64,000 nt of DNA from the NCBI GenBank assembly GCA_951828385.1, contig OX639973.1, positions 3,215,200 through 3,279,199 on the forward strand, in the 5' to 3' direction. The first letter of the stretch is position 1, and each line of letters begins with the position of its first letter. Both the position numbers and the translations under genes were made by a program. Under the pieces are notes generated by a model, which saw only the letters and a list, made by a program, of their open reading frames with translations, was not told the origin of the DNA and did no database searches. Source of the DNA: an uncultured Poribacteria bacterium. GTDB lineage: Bacteria; Poribacteria; WGA-4E; WGA-3G. Of the stretch, positions 12,536-29,479 are shown one piece after another.

Positions 12536-14593
12536 CTAACTGTCCCCCAAACGGGATGCGACCAGCACTAAGTCTTGGATGTTCACCACACCATCACCGT
12601 TTACATCCGCAGGACTCAGTCCAGCCTCCCCGAGGTGCGATGCGACCAGCACTAAGTCTTGGATGTTCACCACGCCATCACCGTTCACATCCACTATTAT
12701 CTCCGGCTCAATAGGCGTGAATTCCCACAAAAGAATCGTGCCATCTTCACTGCCGCTTGCAAGTGTGCCACCATAGCGAGAGAGTGCAAGCGTATTAACA
12801 CCAGCAGTATGCCCTGTGAGTGTAGCTTGAAGCTGTCCTGTCTGTGTATCCCACAACCGAATTGTATCATCCCAACTTCCACTGGCAAGCGTTTTCCCAT
12901 CAGGGAAGAACAAAACAGATTTGACACGAGACGTATGTCCCATGAGCGTAACGTAGGATTGTCCTGTCTGTATATTCCACAATCGAACTGTGTTATCCCA
13001 ACTACCGCTGGCAAGGGTACCACCATCTGAACTAAACGCCACAGCATCAACAAGACGTGTGTGTTCTTCCAAAGATGCCAGGTGTTCTCCTCTCTCTACA
13101 TCCCATAAGTGAATTGCATTGCCCTGCCCTCCGCTGGCAAGCGTACGACTATCTGGGCTGAATGCGACAGTATAGACATTGGCACCGGCTCTGAGCGTTA
13201 CTTTGTGTTCACCGGTATCAGCGTCCCATAATCGCGCTGTGCTGTCCCAACTTCCACTGGCAAGTGTGCTACCGTCTGGACTAAACATGATGGATTCCAC
13301 ACCATATTTATGGCTTGTGATAGGCACTTTGGGTTGCCCGGTGTGGACATCCCATAACCGAATTGCGGTATCCCCCCACCCACCCCCACTGGCGAGTGTC
13401 GCGCCATCTGGACTAAATGCAACGGAAAAGACACGTCCACCATGTCCCTTAAGTGTATCTTGGAGGTGCCCTGTGTCGGCGGCCCACAAATGAATTGCCT
13501 TGCCATCGTCCACACTCGCGAAAATTTGTCCATCGGGCGCGAACGCAATCTCATTAACTGGAAAAGTATGACCGGTGATAGTAGACTTGTGTTGAAAGAC
13601 AACATAATCCCAAAATTGGATCATCTGGTCATCACCTGCACTCGCAAGGGTTCGTCCATCTGGGCTGAACGCAACAGAGGCCTCCCAACTGGTATGTCCG
13701 GCAAGGGTTATTTTCAGCGTTTCAGTGGCAGGATCCCATAACCGAATGGTTTCATCGCTGCCCGCACTCGCGAGTGTTTGCCCATCAGGAGAAAATGCAA
13801 CAGAAGTGACACCCTGTGTGTGTTCAGTAAGCGTAGTCTTGTGTTCCCCGGTATATGGATCCCACAATCGAATTGTATCATCCGTACTTCCAGTGGCAAG
13901 CATCCGTCCATCAGGAGAAAACGCAACGGAAGTGACTCCATATTCGTGCCCGATGAGGGAAGTGGCAACGATACGGAAATTATCTTTTGCCTTCCATAAG
14001 CGAATTGTATTGTCTTTGTGCCCACCACCACTAGCAAGCATGAGTCCGTCTGGACTGAACGCAACAGAAGTGACGGATCCCGTATGTCCCATTAAAGTCG
14101 TTATATAGTTGCCTGTACTCGCGCCCCACAATCGAATCGTTTTGTCTGAACCACCACTTACAAGTAAGTCGATTTGCGACAAAGGCGAAAACACGAGCGA
14201 AGTAATACGACCGCGATTGTGTCCTCTCGGAGACGCTTTCTGTTCGCCGGTACGTGGGTTCCACAACTGGATCGTTCCGTCCGTACTGCCAGCAGCAAGT
14301 GTATTTCCATTCGCGGAAAATGCGATGACTGAGATCTGCGCTGTATGCCCGACGAGCAAGCTAATTTCTTGATGAGTGTCCGCATCGTAAAGCCAGACCC
14401 CAATAGAACTCGGAACCGCCAGCAGACTACCATCTGGAGAATACTGGATATCTCCGGTTATTGTGCCTTTACCGAGGCGTGCTGTGGCACCCTCGGGTAA
14501 ATTCCACTGCGTATAATCTTGGGCAGAGACGTTCGCATGAAATAGTATCGAAAGAAAAAACATCGTCAAAATCAGGGCACGTGTCAGTTTCAT
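12536..14593 (-). CDS. Secreted WD40 (14-repeat) protein with C-terminal dockerin
   Basis: 685 residues. A signal peptide (MKLTRALILTMFFLSILFHANVSA) is followed by DYTQWNLPEG and then 14 WD-type repeats ending in motifs such as TIRLWD or TVRLWN, enough for two seven-bladed propellers. The C-terminal 54 residues are two copies of DVNGDGVVNIQDLVLVAS, the Ca-binding loops of a type I dockerin. No cohesin partner is visible in the window. It is presumably a secreted or surface protein-interaction platform. The opening module is shared with the sigma-WD40 fusion at 23.9-26.4 kb. Confidence 0.92.
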   Translation of the reverse strand: MKLTRALILTMFFLSILFHANVSAQDYTQWNLPEGATARLGKGTITGDIQYSPDGSLLAVPSSIGVWLYDADTHQEISLLVGHTAQISVIAFSANGNTLAAGSTDGTIQLWNPRTGEQKASPRGHNRGRITSLVFSPLSQIDLLVSGGSDKTIRLWGASTGNYITTLMGHTGSVTSVAFSPDGLMLASGGGHKDNTIRLWKAKDNFRIVATSLIGHEYGVTSVAFSPDGRMLATGSTDDTIRLWDPYTGEHKTTLTEHTQGVTSVAFSPDGQTLASAGSDETIRLWDPATETLKITLAGHTSWEASVAFSPDGRTLASAGDDQMIQFWDYVVFQHKSTITGHTFPVNEIAFAPDGQIFASVDDGKAIHLWAADTGHLQDTLKGHGGRVFSVAFSPDGATLASGGGWGDTAIRLWDVHTGQPKVPITSHKYGVESIMFSPDGSTLASGSWDSTARLWDADTGEHKVTLRAGANVYTVAFSPDSRTLASGGQGNAIHLWDVERGEHLASLEEHTRLVDAVAFSSDGGTLASGSWDNTVRLWNIQTGQSYVTLMGHTSRVKSVLFFPDGKTLASGSWDDTIRLWDTQTGQLQATLTGHTAGVNTLALSRYGGTLASGSEDGTILLWEFTPIEPEIIVDVNGDGVVNIQDLVLVASHLGEAGLSPADVNGDGVVNIQDLVLVASRLGDS

Positions 14594-20957: not shown

Positions 20958-21650
20958 ATGAAACGCCAACTATCTTTTTTAAGAGAAGTTCGTCAGAGAT
21001 TATTTTCTGGTTCTTCATATTCAACCGCGCTCGCCTGTGTCGCGTTCCTTGTTTTTCTACTTCCATCAATAAACTGCGGTCCACCGCCGCAAAGCCAATA
21101 CTATGTCCCAGAATCGGCGATCACTGCCGCCGAAAAGACGACAACACCAACGCAATCCACGCAAAAAAGTGGAACAAGCTTACCGGAATCCGCTACCGTC
21201 CAATTGGAAAAGATGCCTTATATCCGAAATGCTTTCAAAGAACGTGTACGCGTGAGCAGCAGAGGTGGACTTAATGATTTTCACGCATCGTCACGTGCAC
21301 AGGTACAGCATAGTGCCGTCATCTCCAACTGTTCGTTTGATGTTTTAAAGGCATTTATTGCGAAGGGATGGGCACCTATTGTGATGATTGAATTCCAAGG
21401 ACGTACCCCGGAAATCTTGCCATTGACTCACTACAACGAGCAATTAGGCGAAGTACTTTTTGAAAACCCTTCCAACCTTAGCAAGCGTCGCTTGACCTAC
21501 AAGGATTTTGAGCAGTCTTGGAGTAGGATCTCACGGAATAAATGTATTTTAATCACACCGCGGCGACTCATAGAAATGGACATTCAGAAAGTGTTAGGGA
21601 GCTACTTACCAACAGAAGCGTTCCAACAGATTAGCGTCCAAAGCCGTTGA
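20958..21650 (+). CDS. Exported protein, possibly a degenerate C39-like peptidase
   Basis: 230 residues. An N-terminal hydrophobic segment (LACVAFLVFLLPSINC) suggests export, and a Cys at about residue 39 could be a weak lipobox. After a Thr/Ser-rich linker comes a domain with FDVLKAFIAKGWAPIVMIEFQG, LPLTHYNEQLGEVLFENPSNL and TYKDFEQSWSRISRNKCIL. This recalls the peptidase C39-like fold (helix, 'G.P.iv', His, strand, Asn/Asp-Pro, 'F...W'). The catalytic Cys of that family is not evident, so the protein may be inactive. Family assignment is tentative. Confidence 0.55.
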   Translation: MKRQLSFLREVRQRLFSGSSYSTALACVAFLVFLLPSINCGPPPQSQYYVPESAITAAEKTTTPTQSTQKSGTSLPESATVQLEKMPYIRNAFKERVRVSSRGGLNDFHASSRAQVQHSAVISNCSFDVLKAFIAKGWAPIVMIEFQGRTPEILPLTHYNEQLGEVLFENPSNLSKRRLTYKDFEQSWSRISRNKCILITPRRLIEMDIQKVLGSYLPTEAFQQISVQSR

Positions 21651-23858: not shown

Positions 23859-26369
23859 CTAACGCAGCTCCCATAGAAGAATTGTACCGTCGTGCCCCCC
23901 ACTGGCAATGGTGTTTCCATCAGGAGAAAAGACTACGTTGTTAACGCCACCCTTATGTCCTGTGAGTGTTGCTATGTGTTCGCCTGTTTGTGGGTCCCAC
24001 AACTGCACCAGATGGTCCCTACTGCCGGTAACAATTATAGCCCCGTTAGGTGAAAACACGACGCTGATGTACCTCAATCGAGGTGTTGTTTCAATCATAG
24101 TTTTTTGCATGCCCGTCCGAACATCCCACAATCGAACTGACTCGTCATCACTTGCACTTGCTAAGATTGTGCCATCGGGCGAGAATGCGATGGAATTGGG
24201 ACCTTGTGTATGTCCTTCAAGCGTTGCTATAATTTGGCTTGTTTGAACGTCCCACAATCGGATTGTTTTGTCATTACTTGCACTGGCGAGTGTTGCACCG
24301 TCTGGAGAGAAGGTGACGCAATTGAGAGCTGCCGTATGTCCCTTGAGTGTGGCTATTTTCGCCCCTGTTTGTGCCTCCCAAAAACAGACTGTTCCATCTC
24401 TACCGCCCGTAGCGATTGTACTTTCATCCGGGGAATACGCCATAGATCTAAGGGCATCCGGATGACTTACAAGCGTAGTTTTAGGCGTTCTTGTGCGCGT
24501 CTGCAATACACGGTTACTGGCATCCCACAAGCGCACCGTCCCATCCCTACCAGCAGTAGCGATAATATCCGCATCTGAGGTATAGGCAACAGCAGTGATA
24601 TGACCCGTGTGCCCTTGGAACGTTGCTATGTGGTGTCCTGTATGGGCATCCCATAAATACCCCACGCCGTCCCGACCTCCCATAGCGATAGTTTTTCCAT
24701 TAGGTGAATATGCTACAGAAGTAATGCTGTCCGTATATCCTTTGATTGTCGTTCTAAGTTTTTCTGTTTGAATGTCCCACAACAACACTGTATCGTCTGA
24801 ACCTACGGTGGCGCGGGTGTTTCCATCCGGGGAATATGCGATATAAGGAACACCTGTCCTACGCCCTGTGAATGTGGTTTTGTGTTCACCTGTGTGTGCA
24901 TCCCACAGTTGGACTGTTCCATAGTTTCCCGTAACGATAGTCGTGCCATCCGGAGAAAACGCTATAGATCCGCCAATTCCGGTAGGTCCTTTGAGTGTTG
25001 TTAGAAGTTCTCTTGTTTGGACATTCCACAACCTAACTTCCGGTTCCTTTTTCATTAATCCACTGCCGGTTTCCATTAATCCACTGCCGGTGGCGAGCAC
25101 GTTTCCATCCGGAGAAAACGCGATTGAAGTGATCGTGTCTGTATGTCCCGTGAATGTACCTACCTGCTGTCCTGTGACAGCATCCCACAAACGGACCGTT
25201 CGATCCGAACCTCCGCTGGCGATAACGGCACCATCTGGAGAAAATGCAAGGGCGTTGACCACTTCCGTCCCTTCTGTTAACAGGTCAAGTTCTTTTTCTT
25301 TACCGGGACGCACATCATAGATCCAAATCCCGATCGCACTTCCAACCGCAAGCCGAGTGCCATCCGGTGAGAAAGCAATATTACCCGTAATTTTTCCTTT
25401 CCCAAGACGTGCTTTCGCGCTTTCGGGCAGCTGCCATTGTGTATAGTCGCCCGGATCGGATAAAACTTGATTTGATGCCTGTTTGCTGCCATTACCTTTA
25501 CCGGGGATATCGGAATTTTCTCCTACTAAATTCCGAACATCCGGTTTTGCGTCAATATTCTGGACTATCGGTGCATCAATAAGTTCCACTGTCATCTCAG
25601 ATTGCGCGTCTAAACTGTAGGGTTGTTGGAAACGTGCCAAATACTGACCGCCTATCCCAAATAACAACATAATTAAAACAGAGGCGGAGGTAGCCAGCAG
25701 CCACGGCATAAAAGGGTTGCTTCCAGACGGCGCAGGAGGTTGAAGATTTGCAACTTCTCTCATTATGTTATCAGTTAAGTTTGCGGAAATTTGGAAATTG
25801 CTGAGTGCCTCTCGAATCATCAGTTCCTCCTTCTTTAGGCGTTGTCGAGCACGACTGAGCCGACTTTTGATAGCACTTGTAGATACGCCTAAAAATCGGC
25901 TAATTTCTTCACACGTCATCTCACCAAAGTAGTAGAGTGTTATCACTGTTCGGTCACTCTCTTTTAATTTGGAGAGCAACTTTTTAACGACCTCGCGTTG
26001 TGTCTTTATTGACACTTTTTCTTGTTCCGCTGCGATATACCTGGAATACGCTGTTCCTTCTATCACATCAATGTCGGTATCTTCCAAAGGTTCAGTTTCA
26101 ATACGTTTCTTACGGAGCCATGCACAGCATTGGTTAGCTGTAATTACATAGAGCCACCCAGAAAACTGATTCGGATTTTTCAAAGTTGACAGGTTTTGAT
26201 ACGCTTTGAGAAAGGTATCTTGCGTAATCTCTTCAGCGATGTGGAAATCATCAGTTTTTCGCCAAGCAAGCGCGTGCACCTGTTTTCGGTATTTTTTTAC
26301 TAAACTTGTAAAAGCAGTATCATCACCTGCAAGGATTCTATGTATCAGTTCAACATCGTTATTTTTCAT
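23859..26369 (-). CDS. ECF sigma factor fused to membrane-anchored WD40 repeats
   Basis: 836-residue fusion. Residues about 15-90 form sigma-70 region 2 (FTSLVKKYRKQVHALAWRK, EEITQDTFLKAYQNLSTLKN, FSGWLYVITANQ). About 130-182 form region 4 (LKESDRTVITLYYFGEMTCEEISRFLGVSTSAIKSRLSRARQRLK in segments), with a helix-turn-helix for -35 recognition. A hydrophobic helix follows at about 219-243 (PWLLATSASVLIMLLFGIGG). Then DYTQWQLPES at about 308 opens 12 WD40 repeats to the C-terminus. Predicted topology: sigma part in the cytoplasm, WD40 in the periplasm. No anti-sigma gene is adjacent, so the tail may serve as its own sensor. The WD40 part resembles the dockerin protein at 12.5 kb. Confidence 0.92.
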   Translation of the reverse strand: MKNNDVELIHRILAGDDTAFTSLVKKYRKQVHALAWRKTDDFHIAEEITQDTFLKAYQNLSTLKNPNQFSGWLYVITANQCCAWLRKKRIETEPLEDTDIDVIEGTAYSRYIAAEQEKVSIKTQREVVKKLLSKLKESDRTVITLYYFGEMTCEEISRFLGVSTSAIKSRLSRARQRLKKEELMIREALSNFQISANLTDNIMREVANLQPPAPSGSNPFMPWLLATSASVLIMLLFGIGGQYLARFQQPYSLDAQSEMTVELIDAPIVQNIDAKPDVRNLVGENSDIPGKGNGSKQASNQVLSDPGDYTQWQLPESAKARLGKGKITGNIAFSPDGTRLAVGSAIGIWIYDVRPGKEKELDLLTEGTEVVNALAFSPDGAVIASGGSDRTVRLWDAVTGQQVGTFTGHTDTITSIAFSPDGNVLATGSGLMETGSGLMKKEPEVRLWNVQTRELLTTLKGPTGIGGSIAFSPDGTTIVTGNYGTVQLWDAHTGEHKTTFTGRRTGVPYIAYSPDGNTRATVGSDDTVLLWDIQTEKLRTTIKGYTDSITSVAYSPNGKTIAMGGRDGVGYLWDAHTGHHIATFQGHTGHITAVAYTSDADIIATAGRDGTVRLWDASNRVLQTRTRTPKTTLVSHPDALRSMAYSPDESTIATGGRDGTVCFWEAQTGAKIATLKGHTAALNCVTFSPDGATLASASNDKTIRLWDVQTSQIIATLEGHTQGPNSIAFSPDGTILASASDDESVRLWDVRTGMQKTMIETTPRLRYISVVFSPNGAIIVTGSRDHLVQLWDPQTGEHIATLTGHKGGVNNVVFSPDGNTIASGGHDGTILLWELR
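25050..25091 (-). repeat. 21-bp in-frame tandem duplication in the sigma-WD40 gene
   Basis: The words ATTAATCCACTGCCGGT repeat with a 21-bp period, adding seven residues (GSGLMET then GSGLMKK) inside a loop of WD repeat 3. A recent in-frame expansion that leaves the frame intact. Confidence 0.75.
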
Positions 26370-26707
26370 CGGATGCCTCGAGAAAGTAATAGATTGATCG
26401 CTGTCGTCTCAATATATAGTGACGCGAGCTCGAGCAAAAAAGTGGCATAATTCAGAAAAATATTTTTTAACGCCCGCCAGTCAAATCCGAATGCTTAGTT
26501 CGCCAGCAAAAGTTTGCGTAGATCCTGATATGTTAAGACTGGTGGTTAAATCGGCGAGAAGCGGTTTGCAGAATAAGGAGAACAAAGGAAAGTAGTCGGT
26601 AATTTTGTGAGGCAACTAACGTATTATCTTCCACAGAAGAATCGTCCCATCCGCGCTTGCACTTGTTGCTTCTTACTTGCCAAACATGCATGACTACTCC
26701 CGTTAAC
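26370..26707. other. Intergenic region with WD40 relic
   Basis: 338 bp between the sigma-WD40 gene and a C-type-lectin gene. It contains a WD40 3'-end relic (26616-26675) and a partial GGACTTACGCA-like word near 26500-26525 (TTTGCGTAGATCCT). Nothing else recognised. Confidence 0.6.
26616..26675 (-). pseudogene. 3'-end relic of a WD40 gene
   Basis: On the minus strand, ATSASADGTILLWKIIR followed by TAG reads in one frame, matching the last WD repeat of the adjacent sigma-WD40 gene (ASGGHDGTILLWELR then stop). The relic starts directly after a TAA in the same frame, so it is only about 19 codons and not expressed as a protein. It looks like the remaining 3' end of a second copy. Confidence 0.6.
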
Positions 26708-28171
26708 TTACTCATCAGCAGCCTCTTTCACAGTTGGTGTTTTAGAAACCAACCCATCCTTTTCTATAATTGCCTCTCGCGTCATTTGCCAGAAAGGGCT
26801 TCCGGGACCAACGGATTGCCATTCACCGTCCCTGAAAGTGAACACGACATAGTCTTTTTCTGTGTCTGGAAGTCTATCAGGAAAAATTGGTCGGACTGCC
26901 CAGTTGGTGTAGGTAACAGGTTCCCCACTATCCCACTGCCATTCTCCCTCCTTTTCCACGTCGGTAAGTCCGATCCATGAGGAGTGGACTCTAAAAATGA
27001 CCTGAAGCCAGTGCTGCTCGGCTTCGTCATTGATGGAGACGAGATGCGCGCCCGCCTCAATCGCCTTCTGTTGCGCATCGTGCCAATCAATACACTGAAT
27101 TTTTTTGTATGCATGACCGTTCGCGGGATTAATGACCCATACGCTTTTCGCTGGCTTCCTCGCCTGCGGTGGGACAGGCGGCTCGGCTTTAACTTCAGCG
27201 GGGATCTCTATAGCTCCAGGGGCTTTAATATTACCGGGAGACGGTTTAGCAGCAACCGGATTACCATCAAGTGTTAGGACAAGTGCCTCCGGGTGTACAC
27301 CATCTTTAAGTAGGAAGGGGCCCACTCCAGCAGAAAGTTCTTTTTCCACAGAAGGTCCACTATATTTCACAGAAATCGTGTAAAACCCTGGTACATCCAT
27401 GTACTCTGTAAAATAGCCGTCGTCATCCGTAAAATAGTCCATGCTGTAGCTGCCGCCACTTTGTGGATTGAACTCATCGCTTTGCCGCATGTTGAGCCGT
27501 CCGTCGGCGTTGACAAGGGGGGTGCCATCGGCATAAACGATTCGCGCGTGGATCCGCAGCCGCGATTTGACGGTGATTTTGACATTTTCGAGGGTTGTGC
27601 CGGGCTCAAGGGCGAATGTGATCCCTTCAAAAAAGCCAGGCTCCTCCGCGTTATTGAAAACGATGACCTTTCCAATCTGGATAGAGAAGATCTTTTTATC
27701 CGGCTCAAGGGGACCGCGATGTATCAATTCGGGTGGGACCTGTTCTCCTTCCAGAATTTCCTCGGGATCGAACCCCTCAGCCATACCCTGTGGGATGTCT
27801 GGAATCACCTCTAATTGAATGAAACCGGGTTGGATACCGGTGACAGTAAAAGTACCCTCTACATCGGTTCGCACTGTAGACGGGTGTCGTGGCATCCCTG
27901 GGAGATCCATGCCTTCAGGCGGTTTTTGACCGTCCGGTTGGAACTCACCCTCCGGTTGTAACTGACCCTCTTGGCGTTGCATAGGTTGAATAGCGAACGT
28001 GAACCCGCCAACACCCCTACCTTCTAAATCGACAACTTTGCCTGACATGCCACTCGGTGCTTGTAGATCCTGCTCTATGGGCACCTGCGCTGTTGTAACA
28101 CCTATTGTGGTGAATAAAAGCGTTAGTGCTGCGAACACTGTGAGTTTTTGTGCGGTGTAGATCCGACGCAT
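26708..28171 (-). CDS. Secreted carboxypeptidase-regulatory plus C-type-lectin protein
   Basis: 487 residues with a signal peptide (FAALTLLFTTIGVTTAQ). About 38-130 is a carboxypeptidase-regulatory-like beta-sandwich (GMSGKVVDLEGRGVGGFTF, TDVEGTFTVTGIQPGFIQLEV). About 180-300 is a second such region with SYSMDYFTDDDGYFTEYMDVPG. About 345-460 is a C-type lectin fold (AHLVSINDEAEQHWLQ, SSWIGLTDVEKEGEWQWDSGEPVTYTNW in segments). It probably binds surface glycans or proteins. A paralogue lies immediately upstream on the same strand. Confidence 0.88.
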   Translation of the reverse strand: MRRIYTAQKLTVFAALTLLFTTIGVTTAQVPIEQDLQAPSGMSGKVVDLEGRGVGGFTFAIQPMQRQEGQLQPEGEFQPDGQKPPEGMDLPGMPRHPSTVRTDVEGTFTVTGIQPGFIQLEVIPDIPQGMAEGFDPEEILEGEQVPPELIHRGPLEPDKKIFSIQIGKVIVFNNAEEPGFFEGITFALEPGTTLENVKITVKSRLRIHARIVYADGTPLVNADGRLNMRQSDEFNPQSGGSYSMDYFTDDDGYFTEYMDVPGFYTISVKYSGPSVEKELSAGVGPFLLKDGVHPEALVLTLDGNPVAAKPSPGNIKAPGAIEIPAEVKAEPPVPPQARKPAKSVWVINPANGHAYKKIQCIDWHDAQQKAIEAGAHLVSINDEAEQHWLQVIFRVHSSWIGLTDVEKEGEWQWDSGEPVTYTNWAVRPIFPDRLPDTEKDYVVFTFRDGEWQSVGPGSPFWQMTREAIIEKDGLVSKTPTVKEAADE

Positions 28172-28198: not shown

Positions 28199-29479
28199 TC
28201 AAGGTTTTTCGGTGTCACTGTCTGATTCAGGGGCACCAATAATGAGATTTTCTCTTTCCAAAATCGCGCGTTCCGTTAGGCGTGCGAGGGGACTCCCCTG
28301 ACGGGTGAGCTGCCATTTCTCTGTCAAACCCACGAGGACTGTATATCCCCGACTCACCTCCTCGGTTTGAGGAGACTTGCTACTCTCGGCAGCTTCCTTT
28401 GGCGAATTCCAATTCGTGTAAGTGATCGGTTCGCCGTTGTCCCATTGTTGCTCTGTTTCCTCTGCGTCAACAGTGAGTCCGATCCAAAAGTTTTCTCGTT
28501 TTCCAAAGACTTCGAGGATCCACTGTTGTTCTGCTTCATCGTTGATAGCGACGAGGTGAGCCTCTTGGGCGACTGCTCGCGCCTGTGCCTCTTCACGGGT
28601 GTCGCAGCGAATCATTTTATACGCGTGTCGGTTGTCGGGATTGATTGCCCACATGCCTTCGCGTTCCCGTTTCCGCGCAGCTTCAAAGCGTGCCCGGTCG
28701 TGGACGTGAGGGGCTACTTCTACTTTCTCGGGTTTAGGGGGTTGAGGCTCAGCACTAAGCGTCAAGACAAGTCCATCAAGCCGCTGACCATCTTCAAGTA
28801 AAATCTCCTCGGATTCCACAGATCGTCCTTCGTATTTCACGGTAACGGTGTAATAGGCAGCCGCATTCACATATTTCGTAAAGTAACCGTCAGGATCAAG
28901 CGTTGTTGGACCACTGCTGCCGCCACCGCCACCTTTCAAGCGTCGTCGGTTGAGGCTGAAATCAACACGTGCATTGCTAAGCGGAGTGCCATCGGCGGAA
29001 AGGACGCGCCCACGGATACGCATCCGTAGTCGGACGATTATCTCTATGTCTTTAACATCTGCACCCTGTTCAATAGTGAAAGGAAATCCACCTCTCTGCC
29101 AGCGGTGCATCTGTGGATCGAGATGAAAGGTTGCTCCATCAATTTTGATGCTTTGAAATTCGTATTCCGCTTCATGTTCAGGCATTAACATAAGTGTATG
29201 GACTGCAGGCGAAGCGATGTCAATGATTGAGAACGCGCCTGTTTCGTCTGTCTCGCTGGGTTGCGTGGGTGGGAACATAGGTTCAGGTCTGTGGTGCCGG
29301 TTTGCTGGCATCTCGCCTGCGAATGACGAGAAACCTACGATAACGTTAGGAACCGGTTGCCCCGCTTCATCGATCACCCTTCCTGAAAAACTTGCCGCTA
29401 CGCTCGGTAGAGCCGTCGAAACCAAAAGCGCAACACTCACAACGCAAACGCCAAGGAATGTCGGGTAAGAACGCTTCAT
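28199..29479 (-). CDS. Secreted carboxypeptidase-regulatory plus C-type-lectin protein (paralogue)
   Basis: 426 residues with a signal peptide ending near SVAAS. The domain order repeats that of the downstream gene: FSGRVIDEAGQPVPNVIVGF, then TDETGAFSIIDI, a YFTKYVNAAAYYTVTVKYEG region, then a C-type lectin fold (AHLVAINDEAEQQWILEVFG, NFWIGLTVDAEETEQQWDNGEPITYTNW in segments). The 27-bp spacing and shared architecture show tandem duplication. A charge-rich linker (RARFEAARKRERE) precedes the lectin fold. No transmembrane anchor seen. Confidence 0.88.
   Translation of the reverse strand: MKRSYPTFLGVCVVSVALLVSTALPSVAASFSGRVIDEAGQPVPNVIVGFSSFAGEMPANRHHRPEPMFPPTQPSETDETGAFSIIDIASPAVHTLMLMPEHEAEYEFQSIKIDGATFHLDPQMHRWQRGGFPFTIEQGADVKDIEIIVRLRMRIRGRVLSADGTPLSNARVDFSLNRRRLKGGGGGSSGPTTLDPDGYFTKYVNAAAYYTVTVKYEGRSVESEEILLEDGQRLDGLVLTLSAEPQPPKPEKVEVAPHVHDRARFEAARKREREGMWAINPDNRHAYKMIRCDTREEAQARAVAQEAHLVAINDEAEQQWILEVFGKRENFWIGLTVDAEETEQQWDNGEPITYTNWNSPKEAAESSKSPQTEEVSRGYTVLVGLTEKWQLTRQGSPLARLTERAILERENLIIGAPESDSDTEKP

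Follow-up and report, generated by a model that had tools for sequence, protein, structure and literature searches.

ECF sigma signalling in bacteria normally requires a separate anti-sigma factor. A gene in a 64,000-nucleotide stretch of poribacterial DNA, here called the window, raises the question of whether an ECF sigma factor fused to its own membrane helix and WD40 repeats is a working regulator, and how it would then be controlled. We find that it belongs to a family specific to the phylum, whose ECF sigma factors appear to be anchored in the membrane and to activate their own genes, and whose sensors are interchangeable.

Architecture of the window gene

The whole gene (23859–26369, minus strand; an earlier sequence-only reading gave no strand) is a single ORF of 836 codons, with its ATG at 26369 and its stop at 23859, and the 836-residue product consists of an ECF sigma factor, a transmembrane (TM) helix and 12 WD40 repeats. 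Sigma region 2 (residues 5–88; 26106–26357, minus strand) is defined by a profile match, the paralogue alignment and solved relatives, and sigma region 4 with its recognition helix (residues 126–181; 25827–25994, minus strand) by a profile match, alignment and covariation. The NCBIfam sigma70-ECF model matches residues 19–181 (E 6e-26), the SigW, SigM and RpoE models match too, and a profile of relatives matches solved SigW (5wuq, 3e-33), SigH and SigE without large gaps over about residues 2–190. Regions 2 and 4 are thus complete, consistent with the sequence-only reading, and regions 1.1 and 3 are absent, which places the protein among the ECF (group 4 sigma70) factors. The sigma part is also intact and under purifying selection: dN/dS against three relatives is 0.11–0.13 over residues 1–181. 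Regions 2 and 4 have values of 0.04–0.15, indicating strong purifying selection, and the WD40 part (0.22–0.28) is under moderate constraint.

Region 4 is followed by a cytoplasmic juxtamembrane segment (residues 182–217; 25719–25826, minus strand), the TM helix (residues 218–241; 25647–25718, minus strand), a conserved outer stalk common to paralogues with differing receptors (residues 242–290; 25500–25646, minus strand) and the WD40 repeats, a putative extracytoplasmic sensor (residues 327–836; 23862–25391, minus strand). The helix, which had been expected at about residues 219–243, corresponds to the single Kyte–Doolittle peak of the protein (1.96 at residues 221–239) and is not a chance hydrophobic run, because the TM helices of 55 paralogues line up with it in the same position. 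The predicted number of repeats is likewise confirmed: a regular expression finds exactly 12 repeat ends (..LWD..), the repeats run to the stop codon, and the Pfam WD40 match has an E value of 1e-111. AlphaFold2 models the WD40 part with about four strands per repeat, and its pLDDT exceeds 80 over most of the span from residue 640 to 836. The syntenic copy in a neighbouring species (L102) is 925 residues long and carries extra WD40 repeats inserted relative to the window gene; repeat number is therefore variable. The mean pLDDT is 57 for residues 1–290 (46 alignment rows) and 58 for the full protein (6 rows), and since the packing of the sigma domains is not confident in these models, self-inhibition could not be seen.

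A family with a shared cassette and exchangeable receptors

The window's own genome, one 6.66-Mb contig, contains 102 region-2 matches, and the 74 that share 40% identity or more with the sigma part of the window gene constitute the family. A TM helix occurs at the same place in 56 members (54 above a strict cut of 1.6 and two, at 1.48 and just under 1.6, added by alignment) and is missing from the other 18. The 56 share one layout, in which sigma2, sigma4, the juxtamembrane segment, the TM helix and the conserved outer stalk precede an interchangeable receptor, either a propeller (BNR/sortilin-like, WD40 or PD40) or LRRs. The window protein, with its sigma part, juxtamembrane segment, TM helix and RFQQPYSLDA..SEMTVEL stalk, is one of them. 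Information content among the 56 is 3.31 bits for region 2, 3.16 for region 4, 2.67 for the juxtamembrane segment, 2.50 for the TM helix and 2.76 for the stalk (residues 242–285), dropping to 1.31 at residues 286–330. Used as a query, the juxtamembrane–TM–stalk segment retrieves 56 places in the genome, which are exactly the 56 TM members and no other gene. Two large tandem arrays lie at 1.52–1.57 Mb (12 genes) and 3.14–3.16 Mb (5 genes).

A Pfam scan of 71 of the 74 C-terminal parts, three being too short, assigns sortilin/DUF6242 to 27, BNR to 22, PD40 to 17 and WD40 to 15, in overlapping counts; in selected members the C-terminal part has LRR, carboxypeptidase-regulatory or Reg_prop domains. 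The carboxypeptidase-regulatory domain serves as sensor in paralogue s4928317m (L078); just upstream of the window sigma gene, 26708–28171 and 28199–29479 (both minus strand) encode two proteins, predicted to be secreted, of the C-type lectin plus carboxypeptidase-regulatory kind. In a tree of 72 of the 74 sigma domains, two N-terminally truncated rows having been dropped, sensor classes are interspersed, with 23 changes against a least possible 3; these classes are rough, and their simple patterns undercount WD40 (7 versus 15 by Pfam on the same C-terminal parts). Well-supported branches force at least 7 changes for the soluble class.

A survey of 84 genomes of the phylum, of the kind that the sequence-only reading had called for, finds the sigma–TM–stalk cassette in 67, comprising 58/58 of the window organism's family, with 1 to at least 58 copies per genome, and 9/26 of the others. 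An assembly or frame artefact is rejected, given that the same cassette recurs in 67 genomes, and there was no hint of a phage or mobile origin. The sigma part alone has matches in 83 of the 84 genomes (best 32 matches per genome scored). Among loci from named genomes, 35 of 36 are poribacterial, the other being a weak match (26% identity) in Ignavibacteriales. The earlier view of the window gene as one fusion therefore stands as regards the fusion, but not as a lone case: the gene is part of a large family with interchangeable receptors and its own promoter code.

The TM-less members end differently. Among eight of their C-terminal parts scanned singly, five carry DnaN, redoxin (two), methyltransferase or S9-peptidase domains, one has a winged-helix-like match below Pfam's cut-offs and two show nothing clear; the redoxin, methyltransferase, S9-peptidase and winged-helix-like fusions are found at L088, L089, L092 and L066. 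Domains of DnaN, the beta clamp, follow the family sigma part at L087:4261–4875 and L090:11787–12761 (both minus strand; identified by Pfam in the first and by similarity in the second), and matches spanning a sigma–DnaN junction, counted by eye, occur in 31/84 genomes. ECF sigma factors of a different lineage are joined in frame to an FtsZ GTPase domain (L090:3978–5201, minus strand, G000 C1 about 5518919; 408 residues) and to FtsZ together with domains of DNA polymerase III alpha, or FtsZ–DnaE (L074:1917–6179, plus strand, about 4711912; 1,421 residues). Matches spanning an ECF–FtsZ junction, also counted by eye, fall in frames of ~398–445 residues in 44/84 genomes and in frames of at least 1,349 residues in 27/84; a separate ftsZ-like frame of 439 residues is present in the window genome as well.

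A promoter that covaries with the sigma factor

Most family genes share an ECF-type promoter, AATTATGCAAC-N15/16-CGCGTCACTA, in keeping with the ECF consensus of AAC at −35 and CGTC at −10. The promoter of the window gene, CTGAATTATGCCAC-N15-CGCGTCACTATA (26415–26455, minus strand), lies 86 nt before the ATG, scores 32.1 against 10.4 for the 99% quantile of shuffles, and is likely autoregulatory. A rigid-pattern search recovers the promoter in only 19 of the 74 genes, and a two-block motif was used instead. Learnt on the 74 family upstream regions themselves, this motif exceeds the 99% shuffle level in 58 of them and in 1 of 28 other sigma-match rows; upstream of the remaining 16, no promoter of the AATTATGCAAC/CGCGTCACTA type is detected. 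At loci of other genomes, outside the learning set, the level is exceeded by 45 of 49 family upstream regions versus 7 of 115 other ORFs, counts in which at least one gene appears twice through the overlap of L108 and L124 on one contig. The family promoter type is also kept by 14 of the 18 TM-less paralogues, from which one would expect the family's sigma domain to work when free.

Further evidence comes from mutual information between sigma factors and promoters, computed over 102 pairs with an effective number of 42. The highest of all 4,810 position pairs couples K168, in the recognition helix, with the last base of the −35 element, and pairs between helix residues 163–173 and the −35 core block (66 pairs) account for 4 of the top 25 (hypergeometric 3e-4), an enrichment matched by 0 of 200 permutations, also within 15 relatedness clusters. 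The method is noisy, as other high pairs fall outside the contact regions. Covariation of the sigma4 helix with the −35 element of its own gene is the trace expected of self-recognition and implies a working, self-activating sigma factor, and each family gene seems to be switched on by its own product.

Across ~696 kb around family genes, 73 sites score above 20, against none in the reversed sequence. Of these 73, 16 stand in front of other genes, including those for ABC-2-like permeases (identified by Pfam on two homologues in relatives) and secreted WD40 proteins (the targets other than permeases were judged by eye). Nearby envelope genes with the related promoter type are probably transcribed as well. 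The −35 element of the window gene, GCCAC, recurs in L102, L116, L127 and L134 and in the L102 permease promoter; a regulon search for GCCAC with CGTCACTA elsewhere in the window genome returned no second site, only the window gene. A secreted-looking protein encoded at 20958–21650 (plus strand) of the window lies beside the sigma gene also in L102, L116 and L134, and by eye its product resembles the protein at G000 C1 3877997, which has a sigma-family promoter.

Control without a recognised anti-sigma domain

The earlier claim that a separate anti-sigma factor is lacking holds for the zf-HC2 type, with none beside the 74 family members; the search covers the zinc type only, and other anti-sigma types would escape it. 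Genome-wide, zf-HC2 gives 7 matches in 6 ORFs, each directly behind a canonical, non-family ECF gene. Within the window protein, no anti-sigma domain is named among the best 25 Pfam and best 25 NCBIfam rows. The 36 residues between sigma4 and the TM helix are cysteine-free and leave no room for a known anti-sigma domain, and a zinc-finger anti-sigma domain is absent from this interval, the stretch between residues 154 and 661 being free of cysteine. The window genome encodes an RseP-like protease with HELGH in a 570-residue frame, although M50 proteases occur in 14/14 control genomes, so that this gene speaks only weakly for release. The drop in conservation from the stalk to the start of the sensor is what recognition of the stalk by one shared protease would predict, and the outer stalk is a candidate site of first cleavage. 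Taken together, the missing anti-sigma domain and the RseP-like protease favour release by cleavage, and the sigma factor is probably held at the membrane and then freed by proteolysis.

The main rival to this reading is that the tethered sigma factor is active in place, uncleaved, with a signal at the propeller altering its orientation or clustering, in the manner of the one-component membrane regulators CadC and ToxR. A juxtamembrane segment of 36 residues without an anti-sigma domain offers no obvious hold on the sigma factor, and this segment and the TM helix are conserved in their own right. A sigma factor must, however, move with core polymerase to promoters across the whole chromosome; moreover, the conserved stalk outside suggests a common processing step, and paralogues without TM are common. 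We therefore regard activity in the tethered state as unlikely.

Location of the propeller

Three indirect lines of evidence support an extracytoplasmic propeller. Cysteine makes up a median 0.14% of the C-terminal parts of members with TM (n=56) versus 1.17% of those without (n=15; p 8e-9). A hydrophobic, signal-peptide-like N-terminus directly precedes the propeller in 22 of 24 free WD40 relatives, a count biased upward by start codons chosen to favour hydrophobicity; these 24 are the loci that are not sigma fusions among 30 retrieved from a total of 128 matches (at E 1e-8, counting sigma fusions). The normally cytoplasmic domains of several TM-less family members also count towards an outside location of the propeller in TM members. 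The weakness of the charge bias across the TM counts against this location: K/R residues are more numerous inside than outside in 32/56 and equal in 18/56, and net charge agrees in 41/56; a positive-inside count over 40 residues is uninformative (27/54). The genome encodes a very large number of free WD40 proteins with signal peptides, some in tandem; one example lies at 12536–14593 (minus strand) of the window.

Unless the following orthologues are assembly faults, some lineages can dispense with the anchor. In the syntenic orthologues L116 (1267–3444) and L134 (2872–5373) of other genomes, both on the plus strand, syntenic comparison reveals that the TM helix and part of the stalk are gone and the sigma and WD40 parts kept, through two different in-frame deletions of juxtamembrane, TM and stalk sequence (~59 residues in L116, ~82 in L134); assembly trouble is possible, because a third contig, L127, ends in the TM region. 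Two propeller-type paralogues in the window genome, s1679271m and s1686892m, also have no TM and, like these two orthologues, count against an outside propeller. The TM-less orthologues would suit a propeller that is cytoplasmic and makes protein–protein contacts as proposed for ECF57, with the hydrophobic segment a loose anchor or packed in the fold, as would the WD40-like repeats of ECF57 members (PMC8999054) and the TM-less ECF–WD40 fusions of another lineage in the window genome (s5081572p, s2046472m). Against a cytoplasmic propeller stand the cysteine depletion, the signal peptides of the free relatives and the strict linkage of TM and stalk, and we consider it quite improbable. That the gene is a decaying or non-functional duplicate with a dead sigma part, as its very numerous paralogues and the gain and loss of repeats might suggest, is scarcely credible given the low dN/dS of regions 2 and 4, the promoter retained by the orthologues L102, L116, L127 and L134, and the covariation of sigma factor and promoter.

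A proposed one-chain receptor

Release from the membrane, with the propeller outside, remains our preferred reading, for which we infer the following course. The protein's own TM helix would tether the N-terminal ECF sigma factor to the cytoplasmic side of the membrane, with the stalk and WD40 propeller outside the cytoplasm, binding or sensing something. A change in the propeller would expose the stalk to a first protease, the RseP-like site-2 protease would then liberate the sigma domain, and this would bind RNA polymerase and transcribe its own gene from its private ECF promoter in positive feedback. The layout, its conservation, the promoter and the sigma–promoter covariation are results of computation, to which the scheme adds by inference the side of the propeller, the sensing, the cleavage in two steps and the target genes. 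We hold this complete scheme of a single-protein receptor and sigma factor, with outside propeller, two-step cleavage and self-activation, with moderate confidence.

The family unites receptor, anchor and sigma factor in one chain, in at least 58 copies in the richest genome, with swapped receptors and, mostly, matched promoters. It is a source of dozens of natural sigma/promoter pairs, possibly free of cross-talk, and provides both a testable case of a sigma factor kept inactive without an anti-sigma domain and a handle on environmental sensing by an uncultured, sponge-associated phylum. More tentatively, and with considerable doubt, the family may amount to genome-wide plug-in surveillance built on one self-activating module, in which the TM/propeller forms (56 genes) would read the outside and the TM-less fusions, including those with DnaN and the second-lineage FtsZ and FtsZ–DnaE, would be built-in decoys watching the cell's own machinery. 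The decoy domains of plant immune receptors are a loose parallel to such sigma fusions with DnaN, FtsZ and FtsZ–DnaE copies.

Comparison with known systems

Literature pairing Poribacteria with sigma factors yielded no account of the family, and that on membrane-bound sigma factors nothing relevant, in a coverage that omits many journals. Eukaryote-like repeat proteins, among them WD40, LRR and TM or signal-peptide proteins, are abundant in Poribacteria (PMC3909097), but the main text of that article draws no link from them to sigma factors; the word 'sigma' is absent from its main text and from those of PMC8546597 and PMC5087111.

In ECF57 of Planctomycetes such as Singulisphaera, the C-terminal extension bears WD40-like repeats (section 3.5.2 of PMC8999054), an arrangement also seen in the window protein. 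By its description, with which our comparison was made, ECF57 differs in that no TM is mentioned, whereas the window family has a conserved TM helix and stalk. The mechanism proposed for ECF57 involves cytoplasmic protein contact and a cysteine pair joining sigma2 and sigma4 (PMC8999054). Among the cysteines of the window protein are C81, C82 and C153, which need not be the counterparts of the ECF57 pair; C81 is present in 56/56 paralogues and C153, in sigma4, in 15/56.

Membrane fusions are represented by ECF52, ECF53 and ECF48 (SCO4117 type), for which the relevant passages of PMC8999054 describe a sigma factor joined via TM helices to an outer domain, with proteolytic release proposed. They share with the window family the order of sigma factor, TM and outer domain in one chain, but are actinobacterial, and in them, as described there, a zinc-finger anti-sigma part separates sigma4 from the TM where the window protein has 36 cysteine-free residues. 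IutY (ECF243) of Pseudomonas putida, in the account given in the same review, combines sigma factor and membrane regulator in one chain and is freed by Prc and RseP. The single chain with a membrane part is common to the window protein; the fused anti-sigma factor and the iron-starvation cell-surface signalling of that account are not seen in it. The nearest known kinds, the ECF57 WD40 fusions and the ECF52 and IutY membrane fusions, each match the window family in part only.
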